Shown here: in pieces, positions 16,808-62,111 of the stretch
How positions within the stretch are numbered: position 1 is the stretch's first letter
Layout of the letters: every line of letters begins with the position of its first letter
From: Hemileia vastatrix
Lineage: Eukaryota; Basidiomycota; Pucciniomycetes; Pucciniales; Zaghouaniaceae
Assembly: GCA_030280995.1 (NCBI GenBank)
Contig: JASXTE010000008.1
Coordinates: 14,461,212-14,525,211, forward strand
Length of the DNA stretch: 64,000 nt
Direction of reading: 5' to 3'
Notes under the pieces: model-generated
The model's database searches: none
The model's input: the letters and a program-made list of their open reading frames with translations, nothing else
Told to the model about the DNA's origin: nothing
Position numbers and translations under genes: made by a program

Positions 16808-17138
16808 AATAGGGGGTGTCAATTCTGGCAAATCCGCACTTACAAATCCGCACTTAAATAAGTGCAGATTTCCGAAACACACTAGCCCCAATACTGGTGG
16901 ATTTCAAAAGTGAAAAAAGCCACTTATTTCACTCAAATACGCACTTTCTCAACCAAAAGTGCTGATTTCACCATCAAGTCCCATTTCACTGATTTTAAGC
17001 ATCATCCCATTCATACGCAGCACTCCGCAGCATAACACTTCATAACTCAAAACATTGTACATAATTTACATCTTCATATCATATCATATAAGAGTTATTC
17101 CTTCCTCACTTTCAAATTGTGATAAATTACATAAAGCA

Positions 17139-18336
17139 ATGACTTTCATGGCTCTTGAACTGCTCTTGGACTCTGATTCAAATTCTGATTCTGATCTAGA
17201 AGAAGATTTTGTCTTTTTATCAAAAATGGCCACAAAACGTTACCTTCTTCCCAGAAAGCCTCAAGTACACTATCCAAACACTTCTTAACCTATCTACACC
17301 CAGTTTTAGACAGCTGTTCAGGACTTTTCAGGAATGTTTCCTTAAATTGCTTGAGCTTATTCAGGATCATCCCATATATCACAATAATTCTCAAAAAGAA
17401 CAACGACATCCTTCAATTCAATTGGCCATCACACTATGTTTTTTGGGTTCAAATGGTAATAGAGCCGCTTTGAAATGTTTAGAAAATGTCTTTGATTTAG
17501 GGTATGGTTCAGTTAACACTTACACCGAATGATGTATCACGGCCATCAACTCCTTGTAATCTCAACTTCTCACCTGGACAACAAAAGAAGAGCGACTTGA
17601 ATCATCTCAGGTTATGCAAGAAGAGCGCTTCCCAGGATGTATTGGTTTTGTTGATGGTACTACTATTCCTTCGAGCCAGAAACCTGCTCAAGGTGGAAAC
17701 AATTACTTTGACCGTAAAAAGAGGTAGATTATTTTTAACTCCTTTCATTCTCTTTGAAACTAACACAAACAAATATATCTTCTTTATAGATATTCAATTT
17801 CCATTCAGCTTATATGTGACGTAAACAAAAAATTTATATCATTCTTTGCTGGCTATCCTGGCTCATGTCATGACTCCTACATCTTCCAAAGAATGCAAAT
17901 TTCAAATGAACCTGAAAAATTCTTTGATGAAGATCAGTATCTTCTTGCAGATTCTGCTTATGTGAATGGAAAGTATGTACTTCCTGCTTTTCGGGGAGCA
18001 GCTTCAGAAGACAGTCAAAATGCCAAGTTCAACAATCATTTGGCAAAGTCAAGAGTCTGTATTGAACATTCTATTGGAATCTTGAAAGGCCGTTTTTCTA
18101 GTTTAAGGGAATTAAGAAGTCCTCTTAGAAATAAATCTGAAATGGAGGTGGTGATCAACTGGATTCTGTGTTGCACTATACTTCATAACCTAGTTGCTGA
18201 CCTCAAAGATCAATGGTTAGAGCTGTATGAAGTTGATTCACCTCCGACTATATCCAACACTTTTATTTCTCAATCAACTAGTATAAGGGCAAAAATTCTT
18301 CCAATAACACTCCAACATTTTTCAACGCAATTTTAA
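17139..18336 (+). pseudogene. PIF/Harbinger-type DDE transposase, decayed
   Basis: Would cut and rejoin element ends. The N-terminus is acidic (DSDSNSDSDLEED), followed by a basic patch and a helical DNA-binding-like region (RQLFRTFQECF, NRAALKCLENVFDLGYGSV). The catalytic domain shows all three DDE_4 acidic residues in context: FVDGTT (GAT at 17653-17655), LLADSAY (17950-17952) and VCIEHSIGILKGRF (18064-18066). A 66-bp intron at 17724-17789 (GTAGAT...TATAG) joins DRKKR to YSISIQLICD in frame, which supports it. Lesions: a frameshift near 17280, TGA at 17530-17532 and TAA at 17557-17559, the last two where arginine codons are expected. The start at 17139 keeps the conserved acidic N-terminus. 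Confidence 0.85.
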
Positions 18337-18659
18337 TTTTTTTTTTTCATTCTCTTCAAATGATCAATTTGCATGTGTTATTCACTGAGAATGGTAAATT
18401 TTTTTGCATATTTTTTTGGTTTTTGAATTTGCTGTTAAAGTCTTATTTTTTTTATCTCTCTGTGTTTTCTTTCATCAACTCAACATGAAATCACATATTT
18501 TCAGCAAATGCATATTTTTTCAGTCACTCTCTTTTTTTTCTTCACTCATATCCTTTTTCTCCTCTCTTACTACATCACTCAAACAATTTCACTTATATTT
18601 CTTTTTTCTCAACTCATCTCTCCAGGTAAGTCATTTTATCTTTTTTACTTAATTTTTTG

Positions 18660-19375
18660 CCAATTTTTTTTCTTTTTTTTTTGGTTTTTTGGGTTTTTTT
18701 TTTTTTTTTTTTTTTTTTTGTAAGTGGTTTTTTTAAATTTATAGGTAAAATTAACATTTTTTTTCTCTCTCTCTCTCTCTCTCTCCCTCTTTTCTCTCAT
18801 TTATCCTATTCTTTATCCCCCCTTGGCCTGGGCTTTTTCCCACCTTTACCCTCTCCTTGGAATGGATACATCCCCCTTTTCCCACCTTTGGCTGCCTTAT
18901 TCCCCCCTCCTTGGCTCACTCTAACCTCACTTTTCTCCCTCTTTGGTCTCATCTCTCCCTTTCTCCCCCTTGTTGGTGTCCTCATTTCCTCCCCTCATTC
19001 CTCTCCAACCCCCCTCCAAATCCCCTCCAAATCCCCTTTAAACCCCCCTCCAAACTCTCCCAATCACCCCCTCCAACCCCCCTTCCAAACCCCCCCTCCT
19101 ATCCCCCTCAAAACCCCCCTACCCCCCCTTAAAGGTTCCTTAACAATTCGCTAACAAATTGTTAAGCAACATTGAGGGGGGGGGGTAGGGGGAGGTTAGG
19201 GGGGGGGTTTGGAGGGGGATTCGGAGGGGTGTTTGGAGGGGATTTGGAGGGGGGTTTGGGGCAGATTGAAGGCAGGTTTGGAAGGGGGTTTGGAGAGGTT
19301 TAATTGGGGATGTGAATAGGTTGGAGGGGGGGGTTTGTACAAGGGGTTTGGAGCGGTGAATTTAGGGGAATGGGG
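18660..19375. repeat. C-rich/G-rich inverted low-complexity structure
   Basis: A T-run (18667-18720) and a TC microsatellite (around 18766-18790) lead into about 200 bp of C-rich repeats of the CCCCTCCAAA type (18940-19135). A perfect 10-bp stem CTTAACAATT/AATTGTTAAG (19139-19148, 19157-19166) forms the centre. It is followed by about 190 bp of G-rich TTTGGAGGGG-type repeats (19174-19370). The halves are imperfect inverted copies. The G-rich strand has many runs of four or more G with short spacers. Apparent ORFs here are low-complexity proline/phenylalanine artefacts. H1 matches the start but lacks the expansion. Confidence 0.8.
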
Positions 19376-19600
19376 AAGTGATAAAAAAATTTTCACAGTT
19401 TTTTGAATTTTTTTTTTTGAATTTTTTTTTTTGATTTTTTTAATTTTAGCAAAAAATATTCATCAAGTTCAAGTGAAATGAAAAAAAATTCTTATAAGTC
19501 TTTTGAGGATTTTTATATTTTGAATTTAAATTAAGTGAGTTTTTTTTAATGTATAATTTTGGGTGTTTGAAAAGTAACAAATTTTTAAGTAGAAAAATAC

Positions 19601-20764
19601 ATGTCTTTAACTTCAGATTCACCACTTACCTCACTCTCATCTTCAAATTCAACTTCTTTTCAATCATCATCTAAAAAATTGACAAAAAATGAACATTATC
19701 AAAATAAAAGAAATTTAAAAAAAAAATTCACTTGGATCAAATATTTGGCCATATTTAAAAAATAAAGTACTATAAAACTAAAGTAAAAAAAAACAATATC
19801 CAAAAATGTTACCTGAAAATATACATTATTTAACTGAAACTGGAGGTGATGAAGCTAAAGCTGTTATTAATAATACTTTCAAACCTCAATTTATTTACGA
19901 AAACCATTCTTTTAATGGTTTAAAAGATGAATCATTTAATTAACTCTGTGATCTCATCATAACACTCTATCAAATGGCTTTGGTTCGCTTACCTTTAAGG
20001 AATAAGAATCTGTTGGGTGGAATCATGCTTGGTATTGGATGGAGACCAGGATTTGATAAAGGTTTTTCTCTTGGTATGTTTAAAAATTTTTCTGGATTTT
20101 TTAATATCATTTTACTGAATTTAATTCAAATAGGCATATATTATTTACTCAGATCTTTATCTAAAACTGAATTAGATAATGATTTTCGAAAATGGAATAC
20201 TTTACCTTCATTTAATTCATTTCTTGCTCTTTGACTTAAAAAATTCTGTAATAAAGCTTTTGAGACAAATCATGAAGTTGCTAAGAGACTTGGAATACCA
20301 AATTGGTGCAACTCTGAATGGGAAGATATTAGCAGTGATTATCTCATGTTTTCAAATGTTATAATCACTCATTCTGGATTTCATAACCGAATTCACACCG
20401 ACTCAAATGATGACAATTACCTCACTTATGGAATTTTCACATATATTAATCCTATCACTGGACAACCTATTCCATCATCTGTAAAAATTAAACGAAATTG
20501 ATTATATTTCCCAGATCATAGATGTATAATTGATTTTGGATTAGGAAATGGAATCATCAAAAAGTTTGGAATTCTTCTTATGATAATCACCAAACCACAA
20601 AGGCTCCTCCAGGTTTGGAATCTTCTCAAGACTTCATGCATTTCGGTTGCTCTTTCCAGATCAGTCAAAAGTTAATCCAGCGAATAAACAAGTTAAAAAA
20701 AGAAGAAAAAGGTAATAAATTTAAAAATTCTTTAGGTAGATCTAAAAAGTATGGGGATTTGTAG
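19601..20764 (+). pseudogene. Tet-like 2OG-Fe(II) oxygenase, transposon-carried, decayed
   Basis: Predicted iron- and 2-oxoglutarate-dependent dioxygenase of the fungal Tet-like type. The N-terminus is S/T-rich then K-rich (MSLTSDSPLTSLSSSNST), with a frame break near 19760. The core has GWRPGFDKGFSLG, then a 60-bp intron (20074-20133), EWEDISSDYL, the HxD iron-binding pair in SGFHNRIHTDS (His 20394-20396, Asp 20400-20402), YGIFTYINPITGQPIP, FPDHRCIIDFGLGNGIIK, the distal histidine in DNHQTTKAPPG (20588-20590) and FGCSFQIS. Stops: TAA 19941-19943, TGA 20232-20234, TGA 20499-20501; frameshift near 20560. The last exon and 3' flank recur in H1, H3 and H4. Substrate is unknown; TET/JBP relatives oxidise methylated or thymine bases. 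Confidence 0.8.
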
Positions 20765-21073
20765 AGTCACCAAATATTTAATATTCTTCCATAAATTTTT
20801 AATAAATAAATATGATATTTCAATTTATGAAATTAAAGTAATGGGCCAACGACCTTGTGCTGTATAAAAGGTAATCATGATAACATTAATTTGTTTCATG
20901 GGATTCCTCTAGCCTATACCTGTTGAAAGTCCCAAACCTAGTTTCTAGACTTGATCTGCATTTTGGCATGAGGAATTGTCATTACTTTAAAAGTAGTAGA
21001 TTTTGACATATCTTATTTATATATTAATTAATTTATGTAATTATATTAAATTTTGATGACTTTCACCCTTTAC

Positions 21074-21240
21074 TTCAATAAAATGCAGGGGAGGGTATTG
21101 CCAATTTTTTAAATCTGACATGTGAAATTGATGACTTAGAAAAATTTGGTGGTACCCACCCCTTGTTTCAATAAAATGCAGGGGAGGGTATTGCCAAATT
21201 TTCAAAAGAGATATTGAATTTTATTAACTTAGAAGTATTT
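21074..21240 (+). repeat. 93-bp tandem repeat, H2 copy
   Basis: Two units starting TTCAATAAAATGCAGGGGAG at 21074 and 21167, with GGTATTGCCAA, GAAATTGATGACTTAGAAAA and GGTACCCACCCCTTG in the first. It lies between the end of the Tet-like gene (+) and the end of the Myb-like gene (-), so AATAAA in each unit could serve plus-strand 3' end formation. Confidence 0.75.
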
Positions 21241-21485
21241 AGATAAGCAAACTTATTGACTTGAAATTAAAGATATAAAATTTTTATTATAATTTCAAAT
21301 TTTTGTCAAAATAAAAGTATAAGCAAACTTATTGACTTGAAAGTAAAGATAGAAAAATTGTATGATATTTTCAAAAATTTGTCAAAAATAACGTACTATA
21401 TTCAAGACCTTTTATAAGGCAGCATATAAGAAAATATTACCAAAAAGAAATAAAAGAAAATTAAATTAACTAGAAAAACAATTTA

Positions 21486-22800
21486 TCAATTGAAAAGGTC
21501 AAGTAATTTTCTAATTTCCTCATAGGATTGGCCATTTTTTACACATTCCATAATGAAATCTTTTTTTTTAAAACTCTCTTGTTTTTCCAATTCACAAGTA
21601 GCCATTTCTCTTTGAAATTGATGGTCATTTACTCTTTACTTCTGCTCTGCCTCAAATTTTTTTTCTTCCAAATCTAAGGCTTGCTGATATTTCCTTAGCA
21701 TATGATCAAACTTCATCTTCTCAAAGTCAAGGGCATTTTTTGCAATAGTTGATTTTGCTGAGAAAATTAAATTGAAATAAATAAATAAATGAGTTAATGA
21801 TTAAGATATATAGTAAACGAATCTTAATTATATCTTTTTTTTCAAAATAATCCTCAAGGGAGCCAAATGAGCTTTTTGAAGTATTACCACGTTTTAATAG
21901 ATGGTTCAAGTTCATTGAAGTTAAGGCTCGACGCTTTAGTTTGGAGCTTGAGAAAGAGGCTTCAGGAAGTTCATCTAAAGCAGCTTCTAAAGTGAGATTC
22001 ACATTTCCAGAATCGAGATTATTTAATGGAGATTGAGTTTGAGTAGGAGGAGACTAGAATGAAAGAGAAATTCAGAGAAGAATTGAAGAAAAAACAAAAA
22101 GTAAACATACATTTAAATTTTGGGCCTCTGAGGATTCAGATCTGCTGCGATATAATTGTTCTGCTTGATAGTCAGGATCATCTTCAGCTGAACTATGGTT
22201 AGAAGGTGGAGGGGATTGATCTCCTTCAAGTAAAGGTGTTTTGGGAGGATTATAGGATGGTTTGGATCCAGAGGGTATATCCTTAGTAGTATCATGTAGA
22301 AACCAAGGGTTTACATCAACTCAGGAGCCAAAAAGATTATCCATTTCCTCATAGAAAGGACACATGACACTGAGCTTTTCAGAAACAGTAGTAATTTTCA
22401 ATCTCCAAATCATCATCGTCAATACCAAAGCCATTTCATTTGCATCATGATGAGCCTTTTTATATTTTGATTGGTAACTCTTAAATCTCTCCTTCATTTG
22501 TTTAGGATTGATATCAATTCTCCCCCTTGTTTTCTTCCTTACTTCATTGGCCATCAATAAGTAGCCATTAGCCTTTGAAGAAGGTGGACATCCAATACGA
22601 GTGGACTTTTCACATCCAAAACATGCTTCAAAATTTGATTTTATTTTAAGGAAGTTGATTATGATGAGATAATCATCCTTTTTAAGATGACCTGAACCTG
22701 ATATTGATTTTTCAGGTGTAGGGCTTGCTTAATGAGGAGACTTTTGTGACAAAGCAGATTTTTGAGTTACCTTTTGAGATTTGGAATGTCTGGGAGGCAT
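21486..22800 (-). pseudogene. Myb/SANT-like accessory protein gene of H2
   Basis: Second gene of the element, convergent with the Tet-like gene. The minus-strand start at 22800 gives MPPRHSKSQKVTQKSALSQK, a Ser/Pro-rich head. A folded domain of about 120 residues follows: KKDDYLIIINFLK, FEACFGCEKSTRIG, KANGYLLMANEVRKK, RFKSYQSKYKKAH and MCPFYEEMDNLFG. Then come an acidic linker (SSAEDDPDYQAEQLY), a probable intron near 22050-22110, a basic patch (SSKLKRRA) and a coiled-coil tail ending FKKKDFIMECVKNGQSYEEI. Stops: TAA near 22730, the TGA ending DNLFGS, and one in the tail. PIF/Harbinger elements normally encode a Myb-like partner that helps transposase bind DNA; that role is inferred from position and fold-like pattern. 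Confidence 0.7.
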
Positions 22801-23123
22801 TATGAAACTGGCACATAACAAGAAAAAAGATTAAGAGGTAGAAGAAATAAGTAAAAAAGAATGTAAACATGCCTTGTCAAAATGTTGAAAATGTCAGGAA
22901 GGGGTGTGTGCCAAGGATTGATGGGTAGGTAGCGAGGAAGGTCAGTGTATCACATGTGATAGGGATGGTATGGGAAAGAAAGGGGTGATGTGGCCAACAT
23001 GTGGTTTTGAAAAAAAAATCACGAAAAAAGTGCTGATTTTAGGTCAGAACTGACACCCATTTTTGAAATAAGTGACTTTTTTGCAAAATTTAAGTGCTGA
23101 TTTGTAAGTGCTGATTTAGTTTG

Positions 23124-23152
23124 AAATCCGCACTTAAGTTAAGTGCGGATTT
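23124..23152. repeat. Perfect subterminal palindrome of H2
   Basis: AAATCCGCACTTAA and its exact reverse complement are separated by one G. The half-site recurs in the terminal repeats at both ends of H2 (for example 16831-16843) and, as AAATCTGCACTTA, in H1. Likely a transposase or accessory-protein binding site. Confidence 0.7.
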
Positions 23153-23177
23153 GCCAGAACTGACACCCCCTAATGAA

Positions 23178-24500
23178 TCAAGTACTGAAACTTTCCCCTA
23201 TACACCCTTTAGAAACAAACTTTATCACTTCAAACTCCTCTTCATTTCCCACCTGGATTGGTGCTAGTGGCTCCTCTGGATGCTGTGTGATTGTACCTTC
23301 TTTACGCTTTGTTAAAAATGAAATGTTGAATACTGGATGTACTTGCCTCATTGATATTGTTGGTTCCAGCTCATAAGATGAGTCAGATACTTTGAATTTG
23401 CCTTTGAATGGCCCCACTTTATTGTGATCTAATTTATTGCTGGGGCACAATGTGGAAAGAAATGTAAGCTTAACCAAATCTTGTCACCTACTTTCAGTGG
23501 GCAATTCTGGCGCCTTCCTTGATTTTGATGATTCTTCATTGATTGTTGAGATAACTTGAGAGCCACTACTAGTTCTTGATGTATACTAAATATTCTTTGG
23601 ATCTGCTCTTCTACTTCTGGGACTTGTAAAGTGGATGGGGTACCAATTGAGAATGTTGGGTGATATTGATAGATAGCATAGAATGGTGACATGCCTGTTT
23701 CAGAATGTGCTTGTTTGTTGTATGAGAATTCAGCTAATGGGTACCCAATAATCTTGCTAATAGTTAATAAAGTGGTGCAAGTATTTTTCAATTGCCTTAT
23801 TTACTATTTCAGATTGACCATCAATTTACCAATTCCATGCTATTGATAAGATGGGTTTAATGTTAAGTTGGTCATAAATTGCTTTTAACAATTTAGAGTT
23901 AAAATTACTTGCCCTAACTGATACTATACTTTCAGGAAATACATGTAATTTCCTGACATGCGCCACCATTAAGTCTGCAATACCCTCTGATGTAAACTTG
24001 GTAGTGGTGGGAAAAAAGTGTGCTATCTTGGTGCAGCGGTCAACTACTGTGAGAATAGCATTCTTTCCTTGTGACTTGGGTAAATCCAGTATAAGATCAT
24101 AATAGATTTCCATCCATGGCTGCTTGGATATGCTTAACAGGGTTAGTGGCATGGTTTTTGGGCTAATCTTGTTCCTCTGGAAAGAATCCCATGCTGCTAC
24201 ATAGCACTGGACATATGCCTTCATAAACTTCCAGTAAAAGTTTTAATTCAAAAGCTCCACAGTATTCAGAGGTCCTGGGTGTCATGCCATTGGGGAATCA
24301 TACCTATATTTTTCCACCTTATTTTTGAGCTCTTCATCATTTGAAAGCACTATCCTCCCATTCAAATACAGAACTTCTCCTTCAGGGTGATACTCCTCCA
24401 ATCCATTCCTTACCAATACGTCTTTTGATAACAGTGCCTTCACCAGCTCCAGAACCCCCTCATCCTTTTTCTTCCCCTCCTTGCCCATTCCATCAAATCT
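23178..24500 (-). pseudogene. Gypsy E integrase, decayed
   Basis: Pieces: 24282-24488 (region before the integrase zinc-binding domain), 23826-24224 (core), 23429-23791 and 23178-23477 (C-terminal part). The core shows MEIYYDLILDLPKSQG with the first catalytic aspartate and VVDRCTKIAHFFP. The second site reads VSVRASNF, where family members have SDRxSxF, so that aspartate is valine. The glutamate segment survives as GQSEIVNKAIEKYL after a stop. C-terminal sequence includes FSYNKQAHSETGMSPF, LKVGDKIWLS and RQVHPVFNISFLTK. Confidence 0.8.
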
Positions 24501-26088
24501 TCATCTGAAAACTCCACCTCATCTAGGATTACCCCCTCTTTAAGGGTCCCCCTTTAATAACATAGCACCAACAGTATGTAGCAGGTCCAGTGCTGGGCGC
24601 AAGTTAGGATGTCATGATAGCGCATCAGGTTTTCCACTTTTCTTCCCTAGTCAGAATGTAACAACAAAATTAATGCTACTTAGAAGCTCTTCCCAGTGTG
24701 CTTGTTGGAGAGTCAACTTTTTAGTGTTCAGGAAGGCTCCTAATTTTTTATGATCTGTGTAGATAGTAACTTGTATTCTGTGAGGCCCTTCTTCTAAATA
24801 GTGGCTCCAGGTGGATACCACTTCAACTAGCGCAAATAAATACTTATCATATGTTTTATAGTTCGATTTTTTTCCTAGCAGTGTTCATGACAAATATGCT
24901 ACTGGGTGCAGGACATTTTCAGAATTGTATTGGTATAATACTGCACCTAGTGCAAAATCTGAGAAGTTGCATTCCAGAAAAAATGGCTTCAATAAGTCAG
25001 GGATTACAAGAATAGGGGCTGTCAATATTTTTACATTTCAGGTAGTCAAACACATTTTGTTGGCTACCTTTCCAGATAAATTTGACTTCCTTCTTTGTGA
25101 GGTTGTGCAATGGTTGGAAAATGTGGGAGTAATTTTCAATAAAATGGCAGTAAAAGCTTGCGAAGCCTTAAAATGACTGGAGCTCCTTTACTGATGTTGG
25201 TGTTGGACATTCTGTTACTTCCATTACTTTATCCTGGTCCATTTGCACCCTATTATTTTAAATGATCATACCCAGGTAGGGGATTTCACCTACTTAAAAG
25301 ATACATTTCTCTGTTTTTAACCATACTTGGGCCTCCCTCAAGCGCTGAAAAGTCTTTCACACATATCTGGTGATCCTCCATCAATCTTGAGTAAATCAGG
25401 ATGTCATCTATGTAAACCGCTACATCTATCCCTATTCTATCTCTGAAAATGCTATTGGTGAAGTGTTGAAAAGTTGAAGGCCCATTAAATGGGAAAAATG
25501 GCATTACCAACCATTCAAAATGACCAAATTTTGTGCAGAATTCAAGTTTCTGTTTATCTCCTTCTTTCACAAATATTTGTGGTAACTTGCCCTGAGATCT
25601 AGGGATGTGAAAATTTCTGCGCCATGCAGACTGTCAATCAACTCACTATTCAGTGGAAGGGGATATCTGTTTTTAACTGTCAGTGCATTTAATCTTCTGA
25701 AATCCATACATGGTCTCAGTGACCCATCCTTTTTACCTGCAAAGATCACAGGGGCTGCCCTGAGATATTTTGATTCTCTAATGAAACCATTCTTCAGATT
25801 TTCATCAATCATCTCTTTTAGTGCTTTTGACTCCAAGGTTGAAAATGGGATTATGCAGCTAAATTGAGGATTTGTGCCCGGCATCAGATCAATGGCAAAA
25901 TTGTATGGTAGATGAGGTGGTAGGGTCTTGACTGATCCCTCTCTAAACAGTGGTAAGAATTCCCAATAAGCTGCAGGGATCATTTCCTGAAGGCTTTTTG
26001 TTGACTTTAAGGACTGGACCCTGGCTTCAATCTTGGAAGATATGTTCCAAGCTGTTTCATTGCATTCCAGTTCCTCTTCTTCCTCCAA
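24500..26088 (-). pseudogene. Gypsy E reverse transcriptase and RNase H, decayed
   Basis: The open pieces 25567-26088 and 25286-25570 cover the RT fingers and palm: SLRPCMDFRRLNALTVKNRY, FTSLDLRASYHKYL, EWLVMPFFPFNGPSTFQHF and the active site VYIDDILIYS, which keeps both aspartates. A frame break separates them at 25567. RNase H lies at about 24560-25280 in broken minus frames; the plus-strand frame at 24925-25176 is its antisense shadow. Confidence 0.85.
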
Positions 26089-26199
26089 TTCCCCCTCAAA
26101 GTCCTGAAACTTAGCATCAAGAGAAAATGTCAGCTCTTGTGGAAAATATACTTATGATAATTAAACACCAGGAGACTTGCTGGGAGGGGCCCCTGACCC

Positions 26200-27930
26200 C
26201 TTCAAACGCCAGGGGACAAATCCTTTCTCTGCGCAATCCACCTTTCTATCTTCTTCCTTCCCTTTTCTTTGTTGAACCTTCTCCTCTTCTCAGTACACTT
26301 TACCCCTTTCTGCTCCTCTCCAGTGCTTCCTGTTAGCGCTCCATCCCCAGCCTGCTGATTAAAGTCAAGAGGAAGAATTAGTTCTGGTGGCAAGTCAACT
26401 GATGATAAAAAAAAATCAGAAGAATCTCTGGGATGGGTCCCTGACCCATGAGGGGGCCAATAATTTAGTGCTGGAATCTTGTTTCCTTTCTATCTGAACC
26501 TTCTTTTCATTCCAATAAACTTGCAGGTTATATCAGTGTATCCATGACATCCCCAGTACCATGTAGTACTGGCCTTTCAGGTTTGTTGCATATGCCCTGC
26601 ACTGACACTCCCTTCTGTCAGGCTAAAACCTACAAAAAACCTTTTCTCTTACTTCTCCTCCATCACCTGGGGATCCATCAAACATAATTAGATGCCTAGG
26701 GTTTTCCAATTTTTCTTTTTTCTTTTTATTTCTCTGTATAAACTTGTTAGAAGTAAAACAGTCTGTGGCCCCACAGTCCAGTAGGGCTTGTACATTTGTT
26801 GTGGGGTCAAGGGTGATGAAAGGCAAGTTTAATATGATGTGATATTCAGTTACTTTAAGTGGCTTACATGCTGATAATTCTTCTACCAAATCCCCTTCAT
26901 TCTTTCCCTCTAATCTGCTCAATGAGGGCACAACCTTCACTCCTGAGTTCTGTCTTCTACCTGTACCTTACTTACGCTACCCTCCACTTCACTAACCCTG
27001 ATCTTCTTCTTACACTCCCTTGCTAGATGAAAACAATTTCCACATTGGAGGAACAGACCTCTGCTCATATGCTTCTGGTATTCCTCATCAGATAGACTTT
27101 TATTCCCACTAGCCTGGCATTCATTGACTGCATCAATGTCCATGGTGTTTGGGTCCCTGGAACTGGTCCTGCTTGACGGGGCATAGTTTTGCCACTTCAA
27201 CCATTCATTTGCTGATGCGTGAACTTGTTTTCGATTTGGATGGCTAGTTTCATGAGCACTTGGAGGGAGGTTGGACAAGGGTGTTCCTGATTTTTTGTGA
27301 GAGCCCATTTTTAAAGGGAAACATGAGTGCTTTTTCTCCCCATATTGTAAAATATCTGGTGTGGCCCTGGAATTTGGACACATACTCAGCAACAGAGTGT
27401 TTCTGTTGTAACTGGTTGAGAGAATGCTCTGAGGTTATGGCCACATTGGAATCACCAAATGATAATTCAAATGCTTCAATGAGCTGATGGAAATCTGTTT
27501 CCAACTTGCCATTTCCAAAGAGTTCCTTTGTATATGGCCTTGCCCAGACTTCCACCTTGTCTGTGAGGTACAAGATTGTGAATCCAATTTTTGATTGCTC
27601 ATCTGGGAACTGATGGAAGTTGAGAAGGACATAAATATTTACCTGTGATGAATACTGATCCACCTGGGGACCTCACTCTCTATAAAAGATTTTCTGGGAC
27701 AGCAATCTTTGGGCCTTTAACAAGTGGTGCTGGTGCTGTGGGCGGCGCCTGTGCCTCAGCTTCAGCAGAGTCCAGTTCTTCTTCTGTGAGGCCATGGTAT
27801 GAGGGCCACTCTTCTGCTCGACATTCCATGAGTCTGGGGGGGTTTTTTTCAATCATGTCTTTTTCTCTTTCATTGCAGAGTGGATTACTGAATCAGGTTG
27901 ACCTGAGGGGTTAATTGTTCTTTGGTAGTG
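26200..27930 (-). pseudogene. Gypsy E gag and protease, decayed
   Basis: Gag begins with an acidic, alanine/proline-rich N-terminus around 27880-27700. Next comes the retrotransposon gag domain in 27250-27663 (YVLLNFHQFPDEQSKIGF, EYVSKFQGHTRYF). The piece 26937-27392 carries a knuckle FLQCGNCFHLAREC, where the first of the usual C-x2-C-x4-H-x4-C cysteines is phenylalanine. Protease is in 26623-26940, with LLDCGATDCF where D-S/T-G-A is expected. The spacer at 26200-26600 is in broken frames. The overlapping frame 27435-27632 is a shifted shadow. Confidence 0.75.
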
Positions 27931-28200
27931 CACCAATTAGGATTGGACAAAATTTTAAGACCTAAGAAGGCAGACTATCACTAGTGCTAACACTAGTCTA
28001 AGATATGACTGACTATTCTGGATACAGAAGTGAGACTAACTAAGAATGACTATGTTGGAACTTCCAACAGTGAGGGAAGAATGGACTGACTATGCCAATT
28101 GGAAGTGAGACTAGAGAGCAACTGGATTACTAAATAAGTTGTCTGATGAGGAGCGCTCCACAGTACTGGCCCCATATAACCCCCTTATGCAATATCCACT
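27931..28200 (-). other. Possible leader and LTR remnant of Gypsy E
   Basis: On the minus strand, TTGGTGCACTACC just upstream of gag (27927-27940) resembles a tRNA primer-binding site. Beyond it lie CACTAGTGCTAACACTAGTC and the palindrome TGTTGGAACTTCCAACA near 28051-28067, whose ends look like LTR termini. No second LTR copy exists in the window to confirm boundaries. Confidence 0.35.
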
Positions 28201-28205
28201 CTTTC

Positions 28206-28721
28206 ACCACTTTAAAATGCATAACTCCCATAGTGCTCCTCCTCCCCACATCTCAACCAATTCTTGATATAATGGTTCATAAGATAATCCCATTTCCATT
28301 GCTCTACCTCCATGGTTTTTGAGGTCTTTTGAGGCTGATGTAGATTTGGCTTCATAGGATGATGTTGACTTTGGCTTTTTTTAAAAGCTCTTGCATCTGA
28401 TCCCATAGAGTATCTACTCTGGCTTTGTATCTCAAATTTTCTGTTTTTATTTTGTTTATATGATTTGACAGGTTTTTTACCTGTTGTGACATAGGGATCT
28501 TTTTTATTTTTATATTTTTTAAAGGATTGACAAGACTTAGTTGAAGTTTGACCTCTCTATGAGTTATTGGGGGAGGAATTTTTATAACTTCTCCTGAAAT
28601 TTCTGTGTCCTGAAGAATTAGATGTTTTTCTGTCAGATGATGAATTTTTGTGAGTTAATTTTGAAGAACCTACAGATTCAACATCAACATCCACCTCAAT
28701 TTCATCTACATGAGGACTATC
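28206..28721 (-). pseudogene. Fragment F: Gypsy ORF1 N-terminal remnant
   Basis: Minus-strand translation shows HVDEIEVDVDVESVGSSKLT, then broken lysine-rich sequence, then MEVEQWKWDYLMNHY, the conserved ORF1 words of copies B and C. The ORF1 start abuts the LTR beginning at 28722 directly, whereas in B and C about 670 bp of leader lies between. The fragment therefore belongs to a deleted or recombined element rather than to D, whose 3' side joins the same LTR from the right. Confidence 0.7.
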
Positions 28722-29071: not shown

Positions 29072-30011
29072 GGCAAGAGGTCCTCTGAAGCGCCACATTA
29101 ATGTATATACAAAGTAAGATAAAATAAAAACAAAATGTAACTAATTTTGAGCAAGTGTAAGGGGAAGCCAATGATACAATTAACTAAGATACATGAGTAA
29201 GAGCCCAAAATCCATTAATTGAATCCTAACTAGTTACAATAAAATTAGTGAGTAATTAAATTAGTTTGAGACAAATAAAAACAACTAATTTAATTTAAAA
29301 CATGTTTTATACTTTTTTTAATTAATAACCAATTTAAGTGAAACATAAAAATAAACTATTTTAACACATAAAAATAGTAAAATTAATTTATTTAGTGTAA
29401 AAGATGAATAATCAATTAATTTAAACTTTTTTATTAGTGTAACAATTACTTTAAGTAAAAAAAGAAATTATTTTAATAAAATTACTAATTTTTTGAGTAA
29501 AACATTAATAATTTATTTAATAAAGAGTTTTAACTTGTTTAATACTTTGGTGACACAATTATAAGTCAAAAAAGCTCCCAACATTTATGCTTAATAAGAT
29601 ATGAAAGGTTTTATTTTATATATAAATTTAATTACATTATAAGACAATTTTACATCTATAATTATAATATATGTTTTTAATTAATTAATTATTAATTCAT
29701 AATTTTTAGGGGGTATAAATGTTGAACAATCTGCAATTTAATTAATTGTGGATAAAAATCATTATACCCCAATTATCTTCTGCAATTATTTTTGCTAATA
29801 ATTGGGTTATTAGACATTTTACATGTCAATGTTCACCTCTATCTGACATTTTTATCCTCAATTTTTCATAACCACATCTTGGACAACATTCTGGATGTGC
29901 CAGCCTCCCTACATTTCTGTGCCCTCCCATCTTGTCTATTCATTTCAATTCAAAACCCCTCCCCATCTCATCTGTTTTTCTCTTCTCCTTTTTGTCTTCA
30001 AATATCTCAAC

Positions 30012-31340: not shown

Positions 31341-31559
31341 TGAGATTTGAAACATTTTATTAAAAATTTTAGATTATTTGTTTGTTTGGTTAAATTAATT
31401 TTGTATCATTTCTTTTTGGTGATAATTTCATATGTGCTGACTTTTTAAAGGTCTTGATTCTTGATGATTTTTTTTTAAAAAAAATTTAAAAATTCAACAT
31501 TTTTTCTTTACATTCAAATCATTAAATTTACTTTTTAAATTCAGCTAAGTCAACAAAAA

Positions 31560-32420: not shown

Positions 32421-32429
32421 CATTGGTCA

Positions 32430-41018: not shown

Positions 41019-41023
41019 ATCAA

Positions 41024-51300: not shown

Positions 51301-52200
51301 GAGGAATATCACTCAAATTACATGATAAGGTAATTCTAATCTCTTCCTGAACAATTCCCAAGACATGAGAACCATGAGCAAAAGCCATAGGGAAAGAGGT
51401 AATAGAGGCAACAATAGAATCCTTTTGTTCACTAGTCAACTGATCACCAAAAGAAGCGGTATTTATTTCATGTAATAAATCATCCATTTCAGTTGTTGTT
51501 CTACCTTTACACTGGATCAGTGAGCTACAAGATTTCAACAAATGCCCAGAAGTTCTAGGAGAGGAAATTTTGAATTTCCTTTTCCCATTCATTCCTAAGG
51601 TAAAGCAATTATTTGCTGGGTCAAGTTTCACACCAAACATGGTTAAAATATCATTTCCCATAATAAACCAATTGCTTAAATTATCATTTTTCATGACAAC
51701 AAACTCACAAACAGCTCTGACAAAACCACCATTATATTTGAATAATACAGAGGTTTTGTATTTGCCAATAGAAAATAAGGTAGAACCATACCCTCTCCAT
51801 TTTTCAGAAGTTATAGGTAATAATTTACTCAAATATTCCTTATCCACTGAAGCCAAAGCTTTTTCAGATACTACACTTCCTCCAGCACCAGAATCAAGAA
51901 CTACATCAACATTTTTACCATTAATGATAACAGGTGCCTTTAAAGGGGATATAGGAATAGAATTGTTATTAATATCTCTAATTATCTCAGCATTTTCTAC
52001 TGAAGATAAATTCAATACACAATCTTCAGATATATTATTTAAATAATGGACATCATGTTCCAACATTAAAACATCTTTAACAGATTCATTGTCATAGGAG
52101 ATATTACTTTCACAGTCACTGGAAGAATTATTGACATCAAGTTCAACTTCATCAGTGTCTTCATTATGTTCAACAAGATGAATTTTCTTGTCACAAACAT
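48389..52200 (-). pseudogene. Gypsy C pol: protease, RT, RNase H, integrase, chromodomain
   Basis: From 52200 leftwards: knuckle end (CDKKIHLVEH), acidic spacer, protease LDSGAGGSVVS near 51890, RT (ARLCGDYRALN, MPFGPKNAPSVFQ, YIDDIIVFSK near 50826), RNase H (LYTDASFIGLGAALHQ, VTDCSAVKSLL), and integrase with CHDDILAGHFDLEK...SCDSCQK, MDFVTGLPVAG near 49476, ISDRDPKFTSEFW and AERMIQTL near 49180. A TAA at 48914-48916 replaces the CAA seen in B (GCAAATGCAAC). The frame then continues through KRRGRPKKNP and the chromodomain-like end to 48389. All catalytic residues look intact. Upstream it is separated from gag by the CACTA-like insertion; its apparent first residues (LASPPPILRG) are transposon sequence. 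Confidence 0.92.
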
Positions 52201-53087
52201 CACCACGCAATATAGGGGGAGGACTTGCTAGCAAGTCCGCAACTTGAAGTCAGATGGAAATCAGATGGAACTCAGACTGAAGTAATACTGAACTTTCACT
52301 TGAAGTATCACACAAATAACAATGGATCTATATTGAAAACATAGTGAAAGTGTGAGGATAACTGAATGGAAGCCAGAAAAAATCATTCCATGAGTCTACT
52401 CAATGCAAAGTATTTTTTGAAACAGCTTATTAAAATAATACTTTATTAAATTAATTTGATCAATAAAAATTGATTGACAATATTGCAATTCTTAAATACA
52501 ATAATTTTATTAAAAAATTTCAGATTACATATAAAAAAAATCAGTGACTTTTTCTATTACTTACAACTGTTTTTACAGAATTGAAAACTATGTTTCAGCT
52601 AATAATTTATGGAAGTGAACTCTGTTCTTCGCCCGAAGAACAGAGTTCATCCTCCTATTTTCACACTCTGTTTGCACCAATCTCCATCCCTTTCAATTCT
52701 ATCAACACATGCTTGTCTTCCCTTCCCATGCCTTTCGCTATCCTCCCAGCCCCATTGTATGCCATCCTCTTTTGATCCCCATTTCACCCCTCTCAACCTC
52801 TCCCAGACCCTTTTCTTCATTTAAAATGCCTCAGAACCCTTAATCTTCCCTTCCAACTCTTTCCCAACCTTTTCGCTACCCCATACACCCTTCCTCACCC
52901 CTCTCTCCAGCCTTTCCAGCCCTTGTAGCCCCATTTGTGTTCACATGAGCTTCAAGGTGTGTTCAAAGTAAATTCAATACTTCTTCATGATGGTTTCATC
53001 ACTTCCTCAATGTGTGCTCAAAAAGATATGAATTAGGGTTCAAGGTTGCAGACTTGCTAGCAAGTCCGCCCCCCATATTGCGTGGTG
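52201..53087. mobile_element. 887-bp CACTA-like non-autonomous element
   Basis: Left end CACCACGCAATATAGGGGG; the right end inverted is CACCACGCAATATGGGGGG, and the TIRs match for about 48 bp. Each TIR contains the perfect palindrome GACTTGCTAGCAAGTC (52223-52238 and 53051-53066). CAT is duplicated at 52198-52200 and 53088-53090. Copy B shows the uninterrupted site. The middle (52650-52930) is strongly pyrimidine-rich on the plus strand and GC-richer than its surroundings, possibly captured DNA. No transposase. Confidence 0.9.
52617..52648. repeat. Perfect 15-bp-arm hairpin
   Basis: GAACTCTGTTCTTCG, CC, then CGAAGAACAGAGTTC. It sits at the edge of the pyrimidine-rich block that is absent from the 239-bp relative at 4458. 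Confidence 0.9.
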
Positions 53088-55097
53088 CATGACCCTTCTG
53101 CCACGGTTTGTTACACTTATAACAAGTATTTGTTGCATATTTTTTAGGTGCAACTGGGGCAGAGGGTTTACCAGATTTTTCTGGGAGCTTTGTAGAAGGT
53201 TTATTCTGATCATTATAAGATTTACTAAGGTAATATTTTGGTTCATATCTATGGATGAGCAGTACTTCATTACAGATATTAATGAAAGAAGAATTTTCCC
53301 TTACATGCTCAGTTCTAGCAACAATCAAATCCCTAAGAGAATTTGGTAATTTATACAAGATTTTATCTCTCCAAATATCATAATCCATCTTTGGATCAAT
53401 TGCTCTAAGGATTTTAGTTATTTTCATCAGAAAAACAATGGGCTTTTCAACAGAGGAGGATACATATCTAGTATTCTCATACAGTCTCTGTTGAGCTAAC
53501 CTGAATTTTGAACCACCAAACTGATTCTCAATCAAGGATTTCCAATCATTCCATGTATAATGATTGTTATCTAAAAGGACAGATTCATACCACATCAAGG
53601 CTACATTGGAAAATAAAGAAATTAGCTTAGAAACAATTTCCTCATCAGGTAGTTTATAAGATCTCTTTAAATTATCAATTCTTTGGATAAAGTGTTTCCA
53701 ATCAGAGGAAGAATCACCATCAAAGGTAGGATATTGGTCTAACTTAGGCCAATTTTTCTGACTACTGGGATGGTCCACTTTTTGGTTTGAATTATTCATT
53801 ATTAATAATTCCTGAAGTTTAGCCAGGTGTTCAGAAATTTCATTATTTACAGAAACAGCTGGTGCATGACCATCACAAGATTTTTTGCTAGTAGCAAAAG
53901 ATTTTACAGACTCATTGTCAGTTTGTTTAATGGTTGAAATATGAGGAAGAAAGGATGAACTTTGCTCAGGTTTTTTCCCTTTATTTTTATGCAGCTTATT
54001 TACAGAAATCTCATTTAATTCATTATTGATGGTTAAGGTTGAGAACTTTTCCTGCAGGTCAGACACATAGTTTCTTATTCTTGGAATTTCAGACATCTGG
54101 TCATTTACTTTTGCAAGAGATAGAACATTTCTGTCCTCAGAAACTGAGTGTTTGGTACTTAGTGCATGGAAATCATTTTTTAGCTTCTTAAACTCATTTT
54201 GCAGAGATTTTATTTCATTCTTGAATGAATAATTTTCCTCAATAAGGGGTTTCAATTCACTCAAGGTCTTTTGTAGACTGATATTTCTATCTGAGATAGC
54301 TCTATGGTCACTTCTTATTTGTTTTTGTTGACTAAGAACAATATTCAAGGTTTCTTTGATTTTTAAATAAGCTGTATCTTGTACAGAAGAACTCACTTTA
54401 CATTGCAAGGGTAAATTATTTAATCTATCATTTTCATGGATTAACACATCTCTCACATGTTTGTCTTTCACAATATTAAAATCAAGGGTATCTTTCAATA
54501 TTTCCTCAGAAGTTTTTTCAATTAAGGTATAGATTTCAGGGGAACAGAATCATTTTTAATTGCAAGAGAAGGATTAATTAAAGATGTAGAAGTTAAATGT
54601 AAAGGTTCATCAAATGACAATTTGCTAATTACATCAATAGGGCTACTAGTTACAGGAAGCTGTCTTTTAACAGGTTTAACTGTTCTTTCACCATGTTCAA
54701 TAATATTACCTGCAGAAGAAGATTTATTAGAAAACATACCCAAGTGACTATCAACCAAATTACTTACCATGGCAGAGGAGGAAACTTCCCCTGGGACTGG
54801 GTTTGGGATTGTGCTTGGGCCTTCTTTCTCCTGCCTTGTTGGTAGGGATGAGGAGGTGGATGGAAATTGGGTGTTCTGGATGGGCCAGGCTGATGATGAG
54901 GAGGGTGTTGCACATTCTGTTGGTAGTGACTCATTAGATAATCCCATTTCCATTGCTCTACTTCCATAGTATTTGTATTTTGGATGGTTGAGCTGGGTGG
55001 CTGTGAAGGTTGAGCCTGAAACTGAGGCTGATTGGGAGGCAACTGAGGAGGGGCCTGGGCCTGAATCTGGTTCCTGAGTTCTTGGACCTGATCCCAC
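53088..55097 (-). pseudogene. Gypsy C ORF2 gag region
   Basis: The N-terminal part 54522-55097 is Ser/Pro-rich. A one-base deletion near 54540 (TCTGTTCCCC where B has TCTTTTTCCCC) shifts frame into 54498-53088, which has a long coiled coil (LSELKPLIEENYSFKNEI, LQNEFKKLKNDFHALSTK), the gag domain (LDQYPTFDGDSSSDWKHF, NVALMWYESVLL, DPKMDYDIWRDKILY) and a knuckle CYKCNKPWQKGH, where the CACTA-like element interrupts it before the last cysteine. Translation would run 33 residues into the insertion (APRNMGGGLASKSATL). ORF2 overlaps ORF1 completely in the -1 frame between 55097 and 54764. Confidence 0.88.
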
Positions 55098-55443
55098 AAG
55101 GTGTCTACCTTTGCTTTCTACGTCATATTAACTGTCTTCAACTCTTTTATATGACTGGATAGGTTGCTGATTTGTTGTGGCAGAGGAAGCTTTTTTATTT
55201 TGAAGCCTTTTGGAAGACCTTCTTGAGGCACTAGAGGCTTTACTTCCTTCTGTGGTACTGGGGGAAGGGGGTTTGGTTTGTTTTCATTTCCTGTCATTTC
55301 CACATCCTGCAGTATGTTAATTCTTTTTGTTAGTATAAGATTTTTTATAACCAACTTTAGAAGAACTTACAGTGTCAGCATCATAGTCAATTTCTATTTC
55401 ATCCACTTGCATGTTATCCATTTTTTCTGCCAAATTGTTGGAC
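54764..55443 (-). pseudogene. Gypsy C ORF1
   Basis: Starts MSNNLAEKMDNMQVDEIEID at 55443. After a frame break near 55330 it continues as RINILQDVEMTGNE and GFKIKKLPLPQQISNLSSHI, then a TAG (55119 region) where B has TAC, then WDQVQELRNQIQ, a Pro/Gln-rich stretch and MEVEQWKWDYLMSHYQQNVQ, ending GKFPPLPW and TAA. The stop sits in CCATGGTAAGTAAT, as in B. About 225 codons in the intact form. No family recognised. Confidence 0.75.
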
Positions 55444-58252: not shown

Positions 58253-58658
58253 ATTAGGGGGTATCAATGTTCAGGGATCAACAATTAAATTAATTGCGGA
58301 TAAAAATCCTTATACCCCAATTATCTTCGGCAATTATTTTTGCTAATAATTGGGTTATTAGACACTTTACATGTCAATGTTCACCTCTTATCTGACATTT
58401 TTTTACTCAATTTTTCATAACCACATCTTGGACAACCTTCTGTCATAACCACATCTTGACCTACTCTCTGCCATAACCACATCTTGGACTACTCCCTGGA
58501 TATGCCTTCTACCTTGCTGCGCACTTCCATTCTCATCCCATCCTGTTTATTCTATCCGCTCAGAATTTCTCCCCATTTCATCTATTTGATTCTGCTCCTT
58601 TTCATCTCGCTATCTCATCTGCTTGTTTCTGCTCATTTTCATCTTCATCTATAATAAC

Positions 58659-60062
58659 ATGCCTCGTCATCCTAGATCTTCTCAAAGGCAGCCATCACCC
58701 AGTTGTTCTTCAATTCCCACTACTTCCTCTTTCCCCCGCTCAGCCAAGAAATCAAAGACCTTTCAATTAAAAAAAGATGACCATCTCATTCTTATCAACT
58801 GGCTGAAAACCAAAACTAACTATGATTCTTGTTTTGGTACTGAGTATGCCACTAAAGTAGGACAGCCCCCCGCATCAAAAGTTAATGGCTATCTTCTAAT
58901 GGCAAATTAATTACGGAATAAGACCAAGGGAAGGATTGATCTTTTTCCTAAAAAGATGTCTGAATGATTCAAGCATTACCGAGCAAAATACAAGAAGGCA
59001 AAGGCTCTTTCATCTTCCACTGGTTTTGGGGTTACCGACAACAATATAACTAAGGGCATAAAATCCATAGACAATAAACTTGAAACTTTATGTCCTTACT
59101 TTAAAGAGATGGATGCAATTTTTGGAGAGCGAGCTGATTTTAATCCTGTTAACATGTTAGATGGTGAAGATCCTATCTCTGAACATGATGTTGAAGCAAA
59201 TATTTTCCCATCCTCTTCCTCCACTCAAGCCTCCCCTCATTTGAATGAGACATATCTAGATAGCTTTTCTGTAGATTCTATAGGTGATTTAACCCAACCA
59301 AATCTAACTCAGGTCTGTTTCTTTTTTCTTTTATCTTATCTTTTCTATTTTTTATTTACTTATCCTTTTCTTATTTCTTAAAAGGCTGATGAACAAACCC
59401 AGGATCCTCAATCAACTGAGTCTGAAGGTAGTTACAATGATGAGGAGGAAAATATGACATTGAACAAGAAGCGTAGGGCTTCAAGTAGTCTAAATTTCCA
59501 CTCACAAAGAAGACAAAAAAGTGATACTTCATCTTAAACCCCTTTTTTGTCTATGGAACAATTTTTAGAGAAACATGATTCTGGTAAGTGATACCATACC
59601 TCTTATTACTTTACTCTACATTTCTTCAACTTTATATTAATTTTTATTATCACTCTAGAACAAGTGGAAATTGCTAAAGAGACTCTAAGCTTTGAAAAGA
59701 AGAAATATGAGCTCTCTTTAAGGAGGGATGATAGGCTACAAGATTTGGAAGAAAGGAAGTACGAGCTCTCTTTAAGGAAGGATGATCGGGCCCAAGATTT
59801 GGAGGAGACGAAGTACCAGCTCTCTTTACGGAAGGATGATTGGGCCCAAGATTTGGAGGAGAAGAAGTTTGAGTTAAGTCTAAGTATTGAAAAATCAAAA
59901 AAAGAGGAGAAAACACTCAAACATCAAAACCTATTAGAGCAGATGAAATATAAGTTTGGTCATGAAGGAAATTCCAAAAAGAAAGATTTCTTGATAGAAT
60001 GTGTTAAAGCTAATAAATCTGTTGAGGAAATTGAACTTTTAAAGAAATTGTTGGATGACTAG
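58659..60062 (+). pseudogene. Myb/SANT-like accessory gene of H4, nearly complete
   Basis: Start MPRHPRSSQRQPSPSCSS. Folded domain: KKDDHLILINWLKTK, DSCFGTEYATKVG, KVNGYLLMAN, HYRAKYKKAKAL, STGFGVTDN, LCPYFKEMDAIFGERADFNP. Introns are inferred at 59313-59384 and 59584-59658 (GTAAGT...CTCTAG), each restoring homology with H3. The basic patch LNKKRRASSS may be a nuclear signal. The tail has three full and one partial 18-residue repeats (KYELSLRRDDRLQDLEER-like, 59695-59880) forming a charged helix, and ends KKDFLIECVKANKSVEEIEL. Three stops: TAA 58908-58910, TGA 58965-58967, TAA 59535-59537. Likely DNA-binding partner of the transposase; not proven. Confidence 0.75.
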
Positions 60063-60204
60063 TTTGTTTTATTTCTCTCACACTTCAACTGTTCATATTT
60101 ATTTGTACATAAAATTTCCAATAATTTCCTTTATTTCATTACTCTATCTATCATTACTTGAATTTTTATATTCTTTTTTTAAATAAAATTTTCATGTCTC
60201 CTTT

Positions 60205-60640
60205 GAAAATTTGATGATCCCCCACCCCTGGATTTTTTTGAAGTAAGGGGTGGGTATTACAAAAATTCTTTCATGTCATGAATCTTGAAAGTCTTATATG
60301 AAACTTTGGCTTTACTACCCCCTGCATTTTACTGGTATCCCCAAAATTCTTACAAGTCAAGAATTTCACAAGTCTTATAAGAAATTTTGGCAATACCCCC
60401 CATGGATTTTATTGAAGTAAGGGACGGGTATCACCAAAAAATTTTCACCAAAATATTTACAAGTCAAAAAATTTCTATATCTGTTTTAAAAAATTGGAAA
60501 TACTCTCCCCTGCATTTTATTGAAGCAAGGGGTGGGTATCACCAAAATTTTTCTAAGCCATCAATTTCACATGTCAGATTTGAAAATTTGGCAATACCCC
60601 CTCCTGCATTTTATTGAAGTAAGGGGTGGAAGTCATCTAA
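60205..60640 (-). repeat. 93-bp-type tandem repeat, H4 copy (expanded)
   Basis: About five partial units with CCxCCCCTGCATTTTATTGAAG and AAGGGGTGGGTATxACxAAA words. Unit length varies between about 75 and 110 bp. Longest array of the four elements; same position between the convergent genes. Confidence 0.75.
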
Positions 60641-60928
60641 ATTTAATATAATTACATAAATTATTAAATAAATATCTAATATATATCAATTTCCCTAGTT
60701 TAAAGTAATGACAATTCCTCAATCCAAAATGCAGATCAAGTCTAGAAACTAAGTTTGGGACTTTCCACAGGTATAGGCAAGAGGAACCCCATGAAACAAA
60801 TAAATTTTATCATGATTACCTGTTATACAACCAAAGGTCATTGGCTCATCACTTAACTTGAGAAAATTGATAAATATAAAATATTTATTAAAAATTTATG
60901 AAAAAATATAAAATTTTCGATGACAACT

Positions 60929-61720
60929 CTAATCCCCATACTTTTTGGATCTAGATAAAGTTTTTTTAAATAGATTAACTTTACATTCTTTCTTTACCTT
61001 ATTGATTCTTTGAATCAACTTATGACTGATTTGAAATGAGCAACCAAAATGTGTTAAATCTTGACAGGATTCCAAACCAGGAGGAGCTTTGGTCGTTTGA
61101 TGATTATCCTTAGAAGAATTCCAAATAGTTTTGATGATACCATTTCCCAAACCAAAATCAATGATGCATTGGTGGTCTGGAAAATATAAACCATGTCCTT
61201 TGATTTTAGCTGGAGATGGTATTGGGTGGCCAGTTATCCGATTGATATATGAGAATATACCAAAAGTAAGAAAATTGGCATCATTCCTATCAATATGAAT
61301 CTTATTGTGGAATCCAGAATGATTGATAATAACATTAGAAAATAAAAGATATTCGTGGCTGATATCTTCCCATTCGGAGTCATACCAAGTTGGTATTCCA
61401 ACTTTGGTTGCAATTTCATGATTTTTTTCAAATGCTTTATTACAGAGCTTTTTGAGTCAAAGAGAAAGAAAAGAGTTAAAGGAAGGTAGAGTGTCCCATA
61501 AGCGAAAATCTTCATCTTTTTGAGCTTTAGTGATATTCTTGACCAATGAATATATGCCTATATAAATGAAATAAGTGAAATGATATTAAGAATGGAAAAA
61601 TATTATTAGACATACCAAGAGAATATCCTTTAACAAAACCTGGTCTCCAACCAAATCTAATCATGATACCATCCAACAAATTTGGGCTAGTGGATAAGAA
61701 TCTTCTGCAATTAATAATGT
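60929..61720 (-). pseudogene. Tet-like 2OG-Fe(II) oxygenase of H4, N-truncated
   Basis: The minus strand from about 61700 gives FGWRPGFVKGYSLG, then a 57-bp intron (61559-61615, GTATGT...TATAG), YSLVKNITKAQKDEDFRLWD, a TGA (61457-61459), KLCNKAFEKNHEIATK, EWEDISHEYLLFSN, SGFHNKIHIDRND with the HxD pair (His 61296-61298, Asp 61289-61291), FGIFSYINRITGHPIP, HGLYFPDHQCIIDFGLGNG, the distal histidine in DNHQTTKAPPG (61100-61102) and FGCSFQIS, ending SRSKKYGD. One stop in the whole catalytic domain makes this the best-preserved copy. The N-terminus was lost at the TIR-side deletion. Confidence 0.82.
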
Positions 61721-62111
61721 CTGATCCCGGAAAAAAAAATTCCTGATCCCTAATTGTGGATCCCTGAACATTGATACCCCCTATTGAAATTTTAATTATT
61801 TTTGTATGACTATAAATTGATGTCAAAATATAGTATTCAATATACATAAAATATATTTTTATCACAAAATAATTGGATGATTAATTATAATATGGGACTA
61901 AATTTCAACAATATTTATATTGAAAATTTAATTATTTTATTATGAGCATAAATTATTATTTCAAAATAAAATTTTCAATATACACACAATATATTTTATT
62001 TACAAAATAAGTTTATGATTAATTATAATATTGGACTAAATTTCAACAATATTTATATTGAAAATTTAATTATTTTATTATGAGCATAGATTAATATGTC
62101 AAAAATAAAAT

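Follow-up and report, generated by a model that had tools for sequence, protein, structure and literature searches.

A distinct group of Tet-carrying PIF/Harbinger-type transposons with a Myb-like gene in the genome of the rust fungus Hemileia vastatrix

A stretch of 64,000 nt of the Hemileia vastatrix genome (C2:14461212-14525211, hereafter the window, meaning the whole stretch of DNA that was analysed) contains four elements, H1 to H4, belonging to a PIF/Harbinger lineage of DNA transposons in which a DDE_Tnp_4 transposase, a Myb/SANT-like protein and a Tet-like 2-oxoglutarate/Fe(II)-dependent (2OG-Fe(II)) oxygenase recur. Our results show that these elements constitute a real group of TET-carrying (TET+) Harbingers, distinct from the published PHISTA group in target site duplication (TSD) and in the Myb-like protein, whose assignment is weak by profile, and that the genome, assembled as 747.6 Mb in 791 contigs, holds thousands of copies and remains of such Tet-carrying cut-and-paste elements. 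We favour, at a probability of roughly 60%, the reading that the Tet protein eases methylation-based silencing of the element's own copies. Two main element families, A and B, and five Tet lineages, A, B, C, C2 and D, are distinguished; the label C2 has two uses, denoting the contig that bears the window (with coordinates) and a Tet lineage (C2-type). The elements and genes of the window are as follows:

H1, 10716-16139: decayed A-family element with AGGGGGTGTCA terminal inverted repeats (TIRs), right TIR GGGGGGTGTCA (1 mismatch), TSD ATT/ATT
11131-11254, plus strand: H1 transposase exon-1 remnant (tblastn)
14732-14821, plus strand: what is left of the H1 Tet, 30 residues from its C-terminus
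15513-15839, minus strand: H1 Myb-like gene remnant
H2, 16811-23171: full-length A-family element, 6361 bp, TSD AAT/AAT
17263-17754, plus strand: first part of the H2 transposase, with an in-frame stop (tblastn, 88% to L052)
17764-18336, plus strand: DDE part of the H2 transposase (PF13359, E 1.4e-25)
19685-20758, plus strand: H2 Tet-like 2OG-Fe(II) oxygenase with in-frame stops (PF20515, E 1.1e-11 on the middle piece, 20235-20501)
21606-22800, minus strand: H2 Myb/SANT-like gene, probably of at least two exons (PF13837, E 2.2e-4, under the cut-off)
H3, 29708-34354: decayed B-family element with TIRs AGGGGGTATAA and AGGGGGTATGA, flanks TTT/ATT
30093-30668, plus strand: H3 Myb-like gene
32018-32436, minus strand: H3 Tet fragment
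33682-33804, minus strand: 3' end of the H3 transposase, 41 residues
H4, 58256-61782: B-family element, 3527 bp, TSD ATT/ATT
58650-59318, plus strand: H4 Myb-like gene (the H2 Myb query matches 58752-59126; the B query itself comes from this stretch)
59592-60035, plus strand: repeat-rich, by eye coiled-coil-looking frame 3' of the Myb-like frames of H4, no Pfam match
60929-61703, minus strand: H4 Tet, open over 175 residues that include HxD and the distal H, and an exon-1 remnant upstream (PF20515, E 2.9e-25 on 60929-61456)

Exact AGGGGGTRTCA ends occur five times in the window, with 0.06 expected. H2 has the length of complete relatives such as those at loci L050 and L052, and H1, H3 and H4 are relatives that have decayed or suffered deletions. 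The initial annotation had described four TIR-bounded elements with 3-bp duplications, in a span starting at 16811; all four were recovered, the duplications stand for H1, H2 and H4 but not for H3, whose flanks do not match, and H1 falls outside that span. Its description of one oxygenase gene in constant order relative to a Myb-like gene agrees with the convergent arrangement of the two genes in 4/4 elements, with a short remnant of the oxygenase left in H1. The transposase reported for H2 is present, its reported start in H1 is an exon-1 remnant only, H3 retains the end of the gene instead of the start, and in H4 a transposase was searched for and none was detected. Both the transposase and the Tet frames of H2 carry stops, so there is no complete Tet copy in the window. 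A putative in-frame intron of 60 nt in the H2 Tet (20074-20133, by eye) would account for a break in frame that B and C copies show at the same position.

Profile searches bore out both enzyme assignments proposed for this stretch. The oxygenase is Tet-like by sequence, with PF20515 matched by H2, by H4 and by an open 385-residue frame at L034 (E 9.8e-34), and the HxD...H triad (H273, D275, H338) is invariant in 16/16 aligned Tets of types A, B, C and C2; the D-type, known from its C-terminal part alone, lies outside this count. After H338, K342 is invariant and H355 nearly so. A homologous protein search with Tet returned none at E 1e-3, and the predicted structure of the H4 Tet fragment, at a mean pLDDT of 34, was not used. 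The transposase is, again by sequence, of the DDE_Tnp_4 (PIF/Harbinger) type, since PF13359 is matched by the DDE parts of H2 and L050 (E 2.9e-25), and the Pfam matches of the DDE part were limited to DDE_Tnp_4, DDE_Tnp_1, Plant_tran and DUF3740. Pfam includes a KDZ model, and no KDZ-type match appeared in our Pfam scans of the DDE part. The third protein, the Myb-like one, is mostly helical in its AlphaFold2 model (mean pLDDT 51).

Beyond the window, exact AGGGGGTRTCA ends number 13956+13844 (27,800) genome-wide, against 102+92 (194) for a reversed-pattern control. For the region C2:1-2.98 Mb, which has a complete list of exact TIR matches, every adjacent plus/minus pair spaced 2.5-9.2 kb was taken as a sample (L039-L058, n=20); the pairs outside the sample are shorter (7, at 195-450 bp) or longer (9, at 12-106 kb). 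The seven short pairs resemble miniature inverted-repeat transposable elements (e.g., C2 501824-502023 and 1749061-1749255). The 3-bp flanks were identical in 19/20 sampled pairs, and because all of them read AAT or ATT (AWT), the middle base is the informative position; 19 matches in 20 would arise with a chance of 2e-5 if that base were random. The exception, L056, has unmatched flanks and two Myb-like genes, and looks composite. The canonical PIF/Harbinger target trinucleotide is TWA, whereas here it is AWT. A PHISTA-like alternative, with TA as the duplication and a TIR starting from GGGGG, was considered and ruled out, as the middle base of the trinucleotide agrees on both sides in those 19 pairs.

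A Tet piece was found in 14/20 sampled pairs, 13 of them of A/B type (L039, L042, L043, L044, L047, L049, L050, L051, L052, L054, L055, L057, L058) plus a D-type one in L045, and no Tet was found in the remaining six (L040, L041, L046, L048, L053, L056). The DDE part and the Myb-like gene are both present in 10/20 (L045, L047, L050, L051, L052 and L054-L058), and Tet accompanies them in nine of these ten, L056 lacking it; L057, which spans 9.1 kb, may be composite. Starting from the gene, exact SGFHNxIH-coding Tet motifs number 15 in the same region. Eight lie inside an exact TIR pair (random 4.1%, binomial 4e-8), and 13/15 have at least one correctly oriented TIR end within 8 kb (random 19.9%), five of these with one end. 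The other two are L059, where all three genes sit in a B-family element whose TIRs have decayed, and L060, a degenerate Tet beside a retroelement-looking frame (by eye) with no TIR in 7.5 kb. Most copies of the gene in this region are thus found within or next to such TIRs.

The same association emerged from motif linkage on contig C2 up to 17.7 Mb, where a Tet motif follows 0.5-6 kb downstream on the same strand for 20/46 B-type transposase motifs (0.72 on average at random, and never more than 5 in 2000), at distances clustering at 1982-2000 and 2704-3502 bp. For 26/46 no such downstream motif is present; 2 have a Tet motif upstream and 2 one on the opposite strand. TIR pairs and motif linkage elsewhere on the contig therefore uphold the earlier proposal of Tet as recurrent cargo in fixed order. 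Genome-wide, the Tet motif SGFHNxIH occurs 3677 times in exact form, the A-type motif GWRPGFDKGFS 251 times and the B-type transposase motif 1896 times, each against 0 in the control and with dead copies included. PF20515 gave 10849 first-look candidates, of which the 150 scored all exceeded the cut-off; these are spread over 19 contigs, 16 of which measure 10.6-71.4 Mb. Genome size, low GC, the count of chromosome-like contigs and the Tet content all point to a rust fungus (Pucciniales).

How these elements relate to known systems was assessed against PMC12730594, the sole relevant prior report returned by full-text searches confined to CC0, CC BY and CC BY-SA papers in PMC. It describes PHISTA, TET+ Harbingers of rusts comprising 15 families from five Puccinia species and Austropuccinia psidii, for which an escape from methylation-based silencing was proposed (Kojima 2025, PMC12730594). 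The general idea of a TET+ Harbinger was already in print in December 2025 (PMC12730594), and the link that the initial annotation offered as a different association is not new; the present group is a separate variant. That our elements are plain members of the PHISTA lineage is very improbable. Superfamily and enzyme family are common to both, as presumably is the host order (Pucciniales), each combining a PIF/Harbinger-class transposase, a TET/JBP-type dioxygenase and a third protein; however, according to the cited sections of that report, PHISTA elements duplicate TA and have no Myb/SANT domain in their third protein (PMC12730594), whereas the duplication here is the 3-bp AWT in 19/20 pairs and the third protein resembles Myb through profile matches below threshold. 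Nuwa and canonical PIF/Harbinger elements share with ours the transposase, the Myb/SANT protein and 3-bp duplications, but no dioxygenase is described for them in those sections (PMC12730594), and here Tet is the third recurrent gene.

Fungal TET genes are also known from other settings. KDZ elements (Kyakuja, Dileera, Zisupton) with TET genes were reportedly treated by Iyer in 2014. Like ours, they are DNA transposons of fungi that bear TET/JBP genes and disperse them, as outlined in PMC12730594, but they belong to another transposase superfamily, ours being DDE_Tnp_4. CcTET of Coprinopsis cinerea, of the fungal TET family, acts on 5-methylcytosine (5mC) and N6-methyladenine (6mA) and is placed near AG-type Tets in the cited part of PMC12730594, whereas the Tet described here has no sequence-level match in PDB.

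Comparison of the families revealed exchange of the Tet gene. A and B are 46-60% identical in the transposase and Myb-like proteins (H1 Myb lower) and 64-77% identical in Tet. The L061 element has B-type TIRs, a transposase 76-86% and a Myb-like protein 79-91% identical to B, together with a C2-type Tet that is 50-58% like A and B. L045 combines A-family TIRs and an A-like transposase and Myb-like gene with a D-type Tet in opposite orientation (L045:2147-2617, minus strand; C2:1544478-1544945), which shares about 30% identity with A across 70 residues. The C2-type Tet in a B-type element and the opposite-oriented D-type Tet imply that Tet modules were replaced or captured more than once. L045 was at one point a candidate Tet-free element, which its D-type gene ruled out. 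The D query gave 4414 first-look candidates in the genome, 150 of them scored, and in 3/3 sampled copies besides L045 the D-type Tet lies tail-to-tail with a Harbinger transposase, 86-120 bp away. Three D-type matches with identical scores, 37,517 bp apart (C194:26749037, 26786554 and 26824071), suggest a tandem segmental repeat.

The top Pfam matches (L009 etc., about 50% identical to H2) had been candidates for a non-Harbinger family; this was ruled out for one C2-type Tet, whose carrier on C121 is a complete AGGGGGTATCA element, about 10.06 kb long and flanked by the TSD AAT. An element carrier has been seen for Tet lineages A, B, C2 and D; lineage C comprises L010, L031 and L032, and the C/C2-type loci L010, L012, L026, L031, L032 and others are known without their element ends. 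A further candidate, Tet-only non-autonomous elements as proof of Tet acting in cis, was also ruled out, as L039, L044 and L049 (3/20 pairs) are chimeras in which A-family ends enclose some 2.2 kb of B interior in inverted orientation, with a Tet that has a stop common to all three.

Under the reading that we favour, the Myb-like protein and the transposase would, by analogy with known Harbingers, bind to the ends of the element and move it by cut and paste, and the Tet protein would oxidise 5mC, mainly at CpG, on the element's own copies. This oxidation would ease silencing and slow C-to-T decay, such that elements with a working Tet would leave more copies; Tet itself would be a module exchanged from time to time, represented by four lineages (A, B, C2, D), one of them opposite-oriented. 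Selection on the gene was examined through the ratio of nonsynonymous to synonymous substitutions (dN/dS, Nei-Gojobori). Between A and B, 25 Tet pairs gave 0.05-0.13, and three DDE-part pairs, all involving a single B sequence, gave 0.14-0.15, another two being saturated. Within families, Tet ranged over 0.26-1.96 and the DDE part over 0.14-1.30. All dN/dS values are rough owing to a between-family dS of 1.1-2.4 and to the choice of sequences for their open frames.

Several of these results count against the favoured reading, among them the roughness of the dN/dS values and the high within-family values of Tet. Regarding the proteins, a 2-oxoglutarate-binding residue is expected after the distal H, and no conserved Arg follows H338 in the aligned A, B, C and C2 Tets; a search of PDB with Tet as a single sequence gave no match, and one with the Tet profile gave six chance-like matches, none credible (best E 0.046, an odorant receptor). 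The Myb-like protein reaches E 2.2e-4 and 1.2e-3 against PF13837, with 22.0 and 19.6 bits under a curated cut-off of 27. The pair sample represents one end of one contig. Finally, the H2 Tet is broken, and the chimera in L039, L044 and L049 is recurrent, its Tet being dead through a common stop.

These dead genes lie within A-family ends, that of the chimera as an evident passenger, and are what would be expected if Tet were a passenger, captured and copied along without use to the elements, and the within-family dN/dS points the same way. We nevertheless consider a passenger role quite unlikely, as the between-family dN/dS of Tet does not exceed that of the transposase, the gene order recurs across the A, B and C2 types, and even the divergent, opposite-oriented Tet adjoins Harbinger transposases.

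The substrate was approached through base composition. The observed/expected ratio of CpG is 0.03 in window positions 1-10000, 0.12 in the region 23.2-28 kb and between 0.06 and 0.46 for the elements or their loci, and private C-to-T changes among six A copies fall on 39/632 C at CG vs 207/11740 other C, a 3.5-fold excess. Both features fit CpG methylation followed by deamination and suggest that 5mC is or was present; the CpG depletion supports a 5mC-erasing function. For Puccinia graminis, the cited part of PMC8444563 reports DNMT1, DNMT5 and methylation at CG, with 6mA being very scarce. Speaking against 5mC erasure, a genome search with PF00145 (C5-methyltransferase) gave 8 matches, none of them on chromosome-scale contigs. 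They were located on C228, C561, C74 and C350, contigs of 44-159 kb. The C228 gene is DNMT2-like (best PDB match DNMT2) with a GC content of 0.33; that of C350 is DNMT1-like, that of C561 resembles it at 44-52%, and GC is 0.45-0.49 at the methyltransferase genes of C561, C74 and C350. RPB2 was found on three large chromosome-scale contigs, weakly on C579, and again on C191, C678, C340 and C122; owing to the extra copies, the assembly probably includes another organism, represented by the minor contigs with extra RPB2 and C5-methyltransferases. Host DNMTs may have been overlooked through introns or assembly gaps. A DNMT1-RFD search, without a match anywhere in the genome, was uninformative, as was a C5-methyltransferase motif pattern, which gave zero and also missed the DNMT1-like genes of the small contigs.

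That no C5-methyltransferase was detected on the chromosome-scale contigs leaves some room for a Tet that generates a different modified base, through oxidation of thymine or 6mA, or that has a direct part in transposition, e.g., at the element ends or the AT-rich target, and the cited sections of PMC12730594 do not exclude other activities for PU- and PE-type enzymes. We regard this as unlikely in view of the strong CpG depletion, the excess of private C-to-T changes at CG, and the CG methylation with scarce 6mA reported for Puccinia graminis (PMC8444563). A broader formulation, which we hold as tentative and rather unlikely, is that of a Harbinger lineage with a dedicated TET slot, into which at least four divergent Tets were captured or exchanged in both orientations and kept by selection as firmly as the transposase. 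Given that no C5-methyltransferase is detectable on the chromosome-scale contigs of the host, the enzyme might then even have a different base as its substrate, or a role in transposition itself, instead of removing host 5mC.

Besides these elements, the window contains minus-strand frames that by eye look like Ty3/Gypsy retroelements (2558-7048, 23178-28560, 39481-45484 and 48389-55127), including an open frame of 1110 residues at 48917-52249, and an Rfam scan of the window gave no match.

If the favoured reading of an element-encoded anti-silencing Tet is true, this very large fungal genome would be partly filled by transposons with their own eraser of DNA marks, and the combination with Tet would have arisen in Harbingers outside the sole published lineage. 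As relatives with an open Tet, with a broken Tet and free of Tet occur in one genome, the anti-silencing hypothesis would be directly testable in Hemileia vastatrix.

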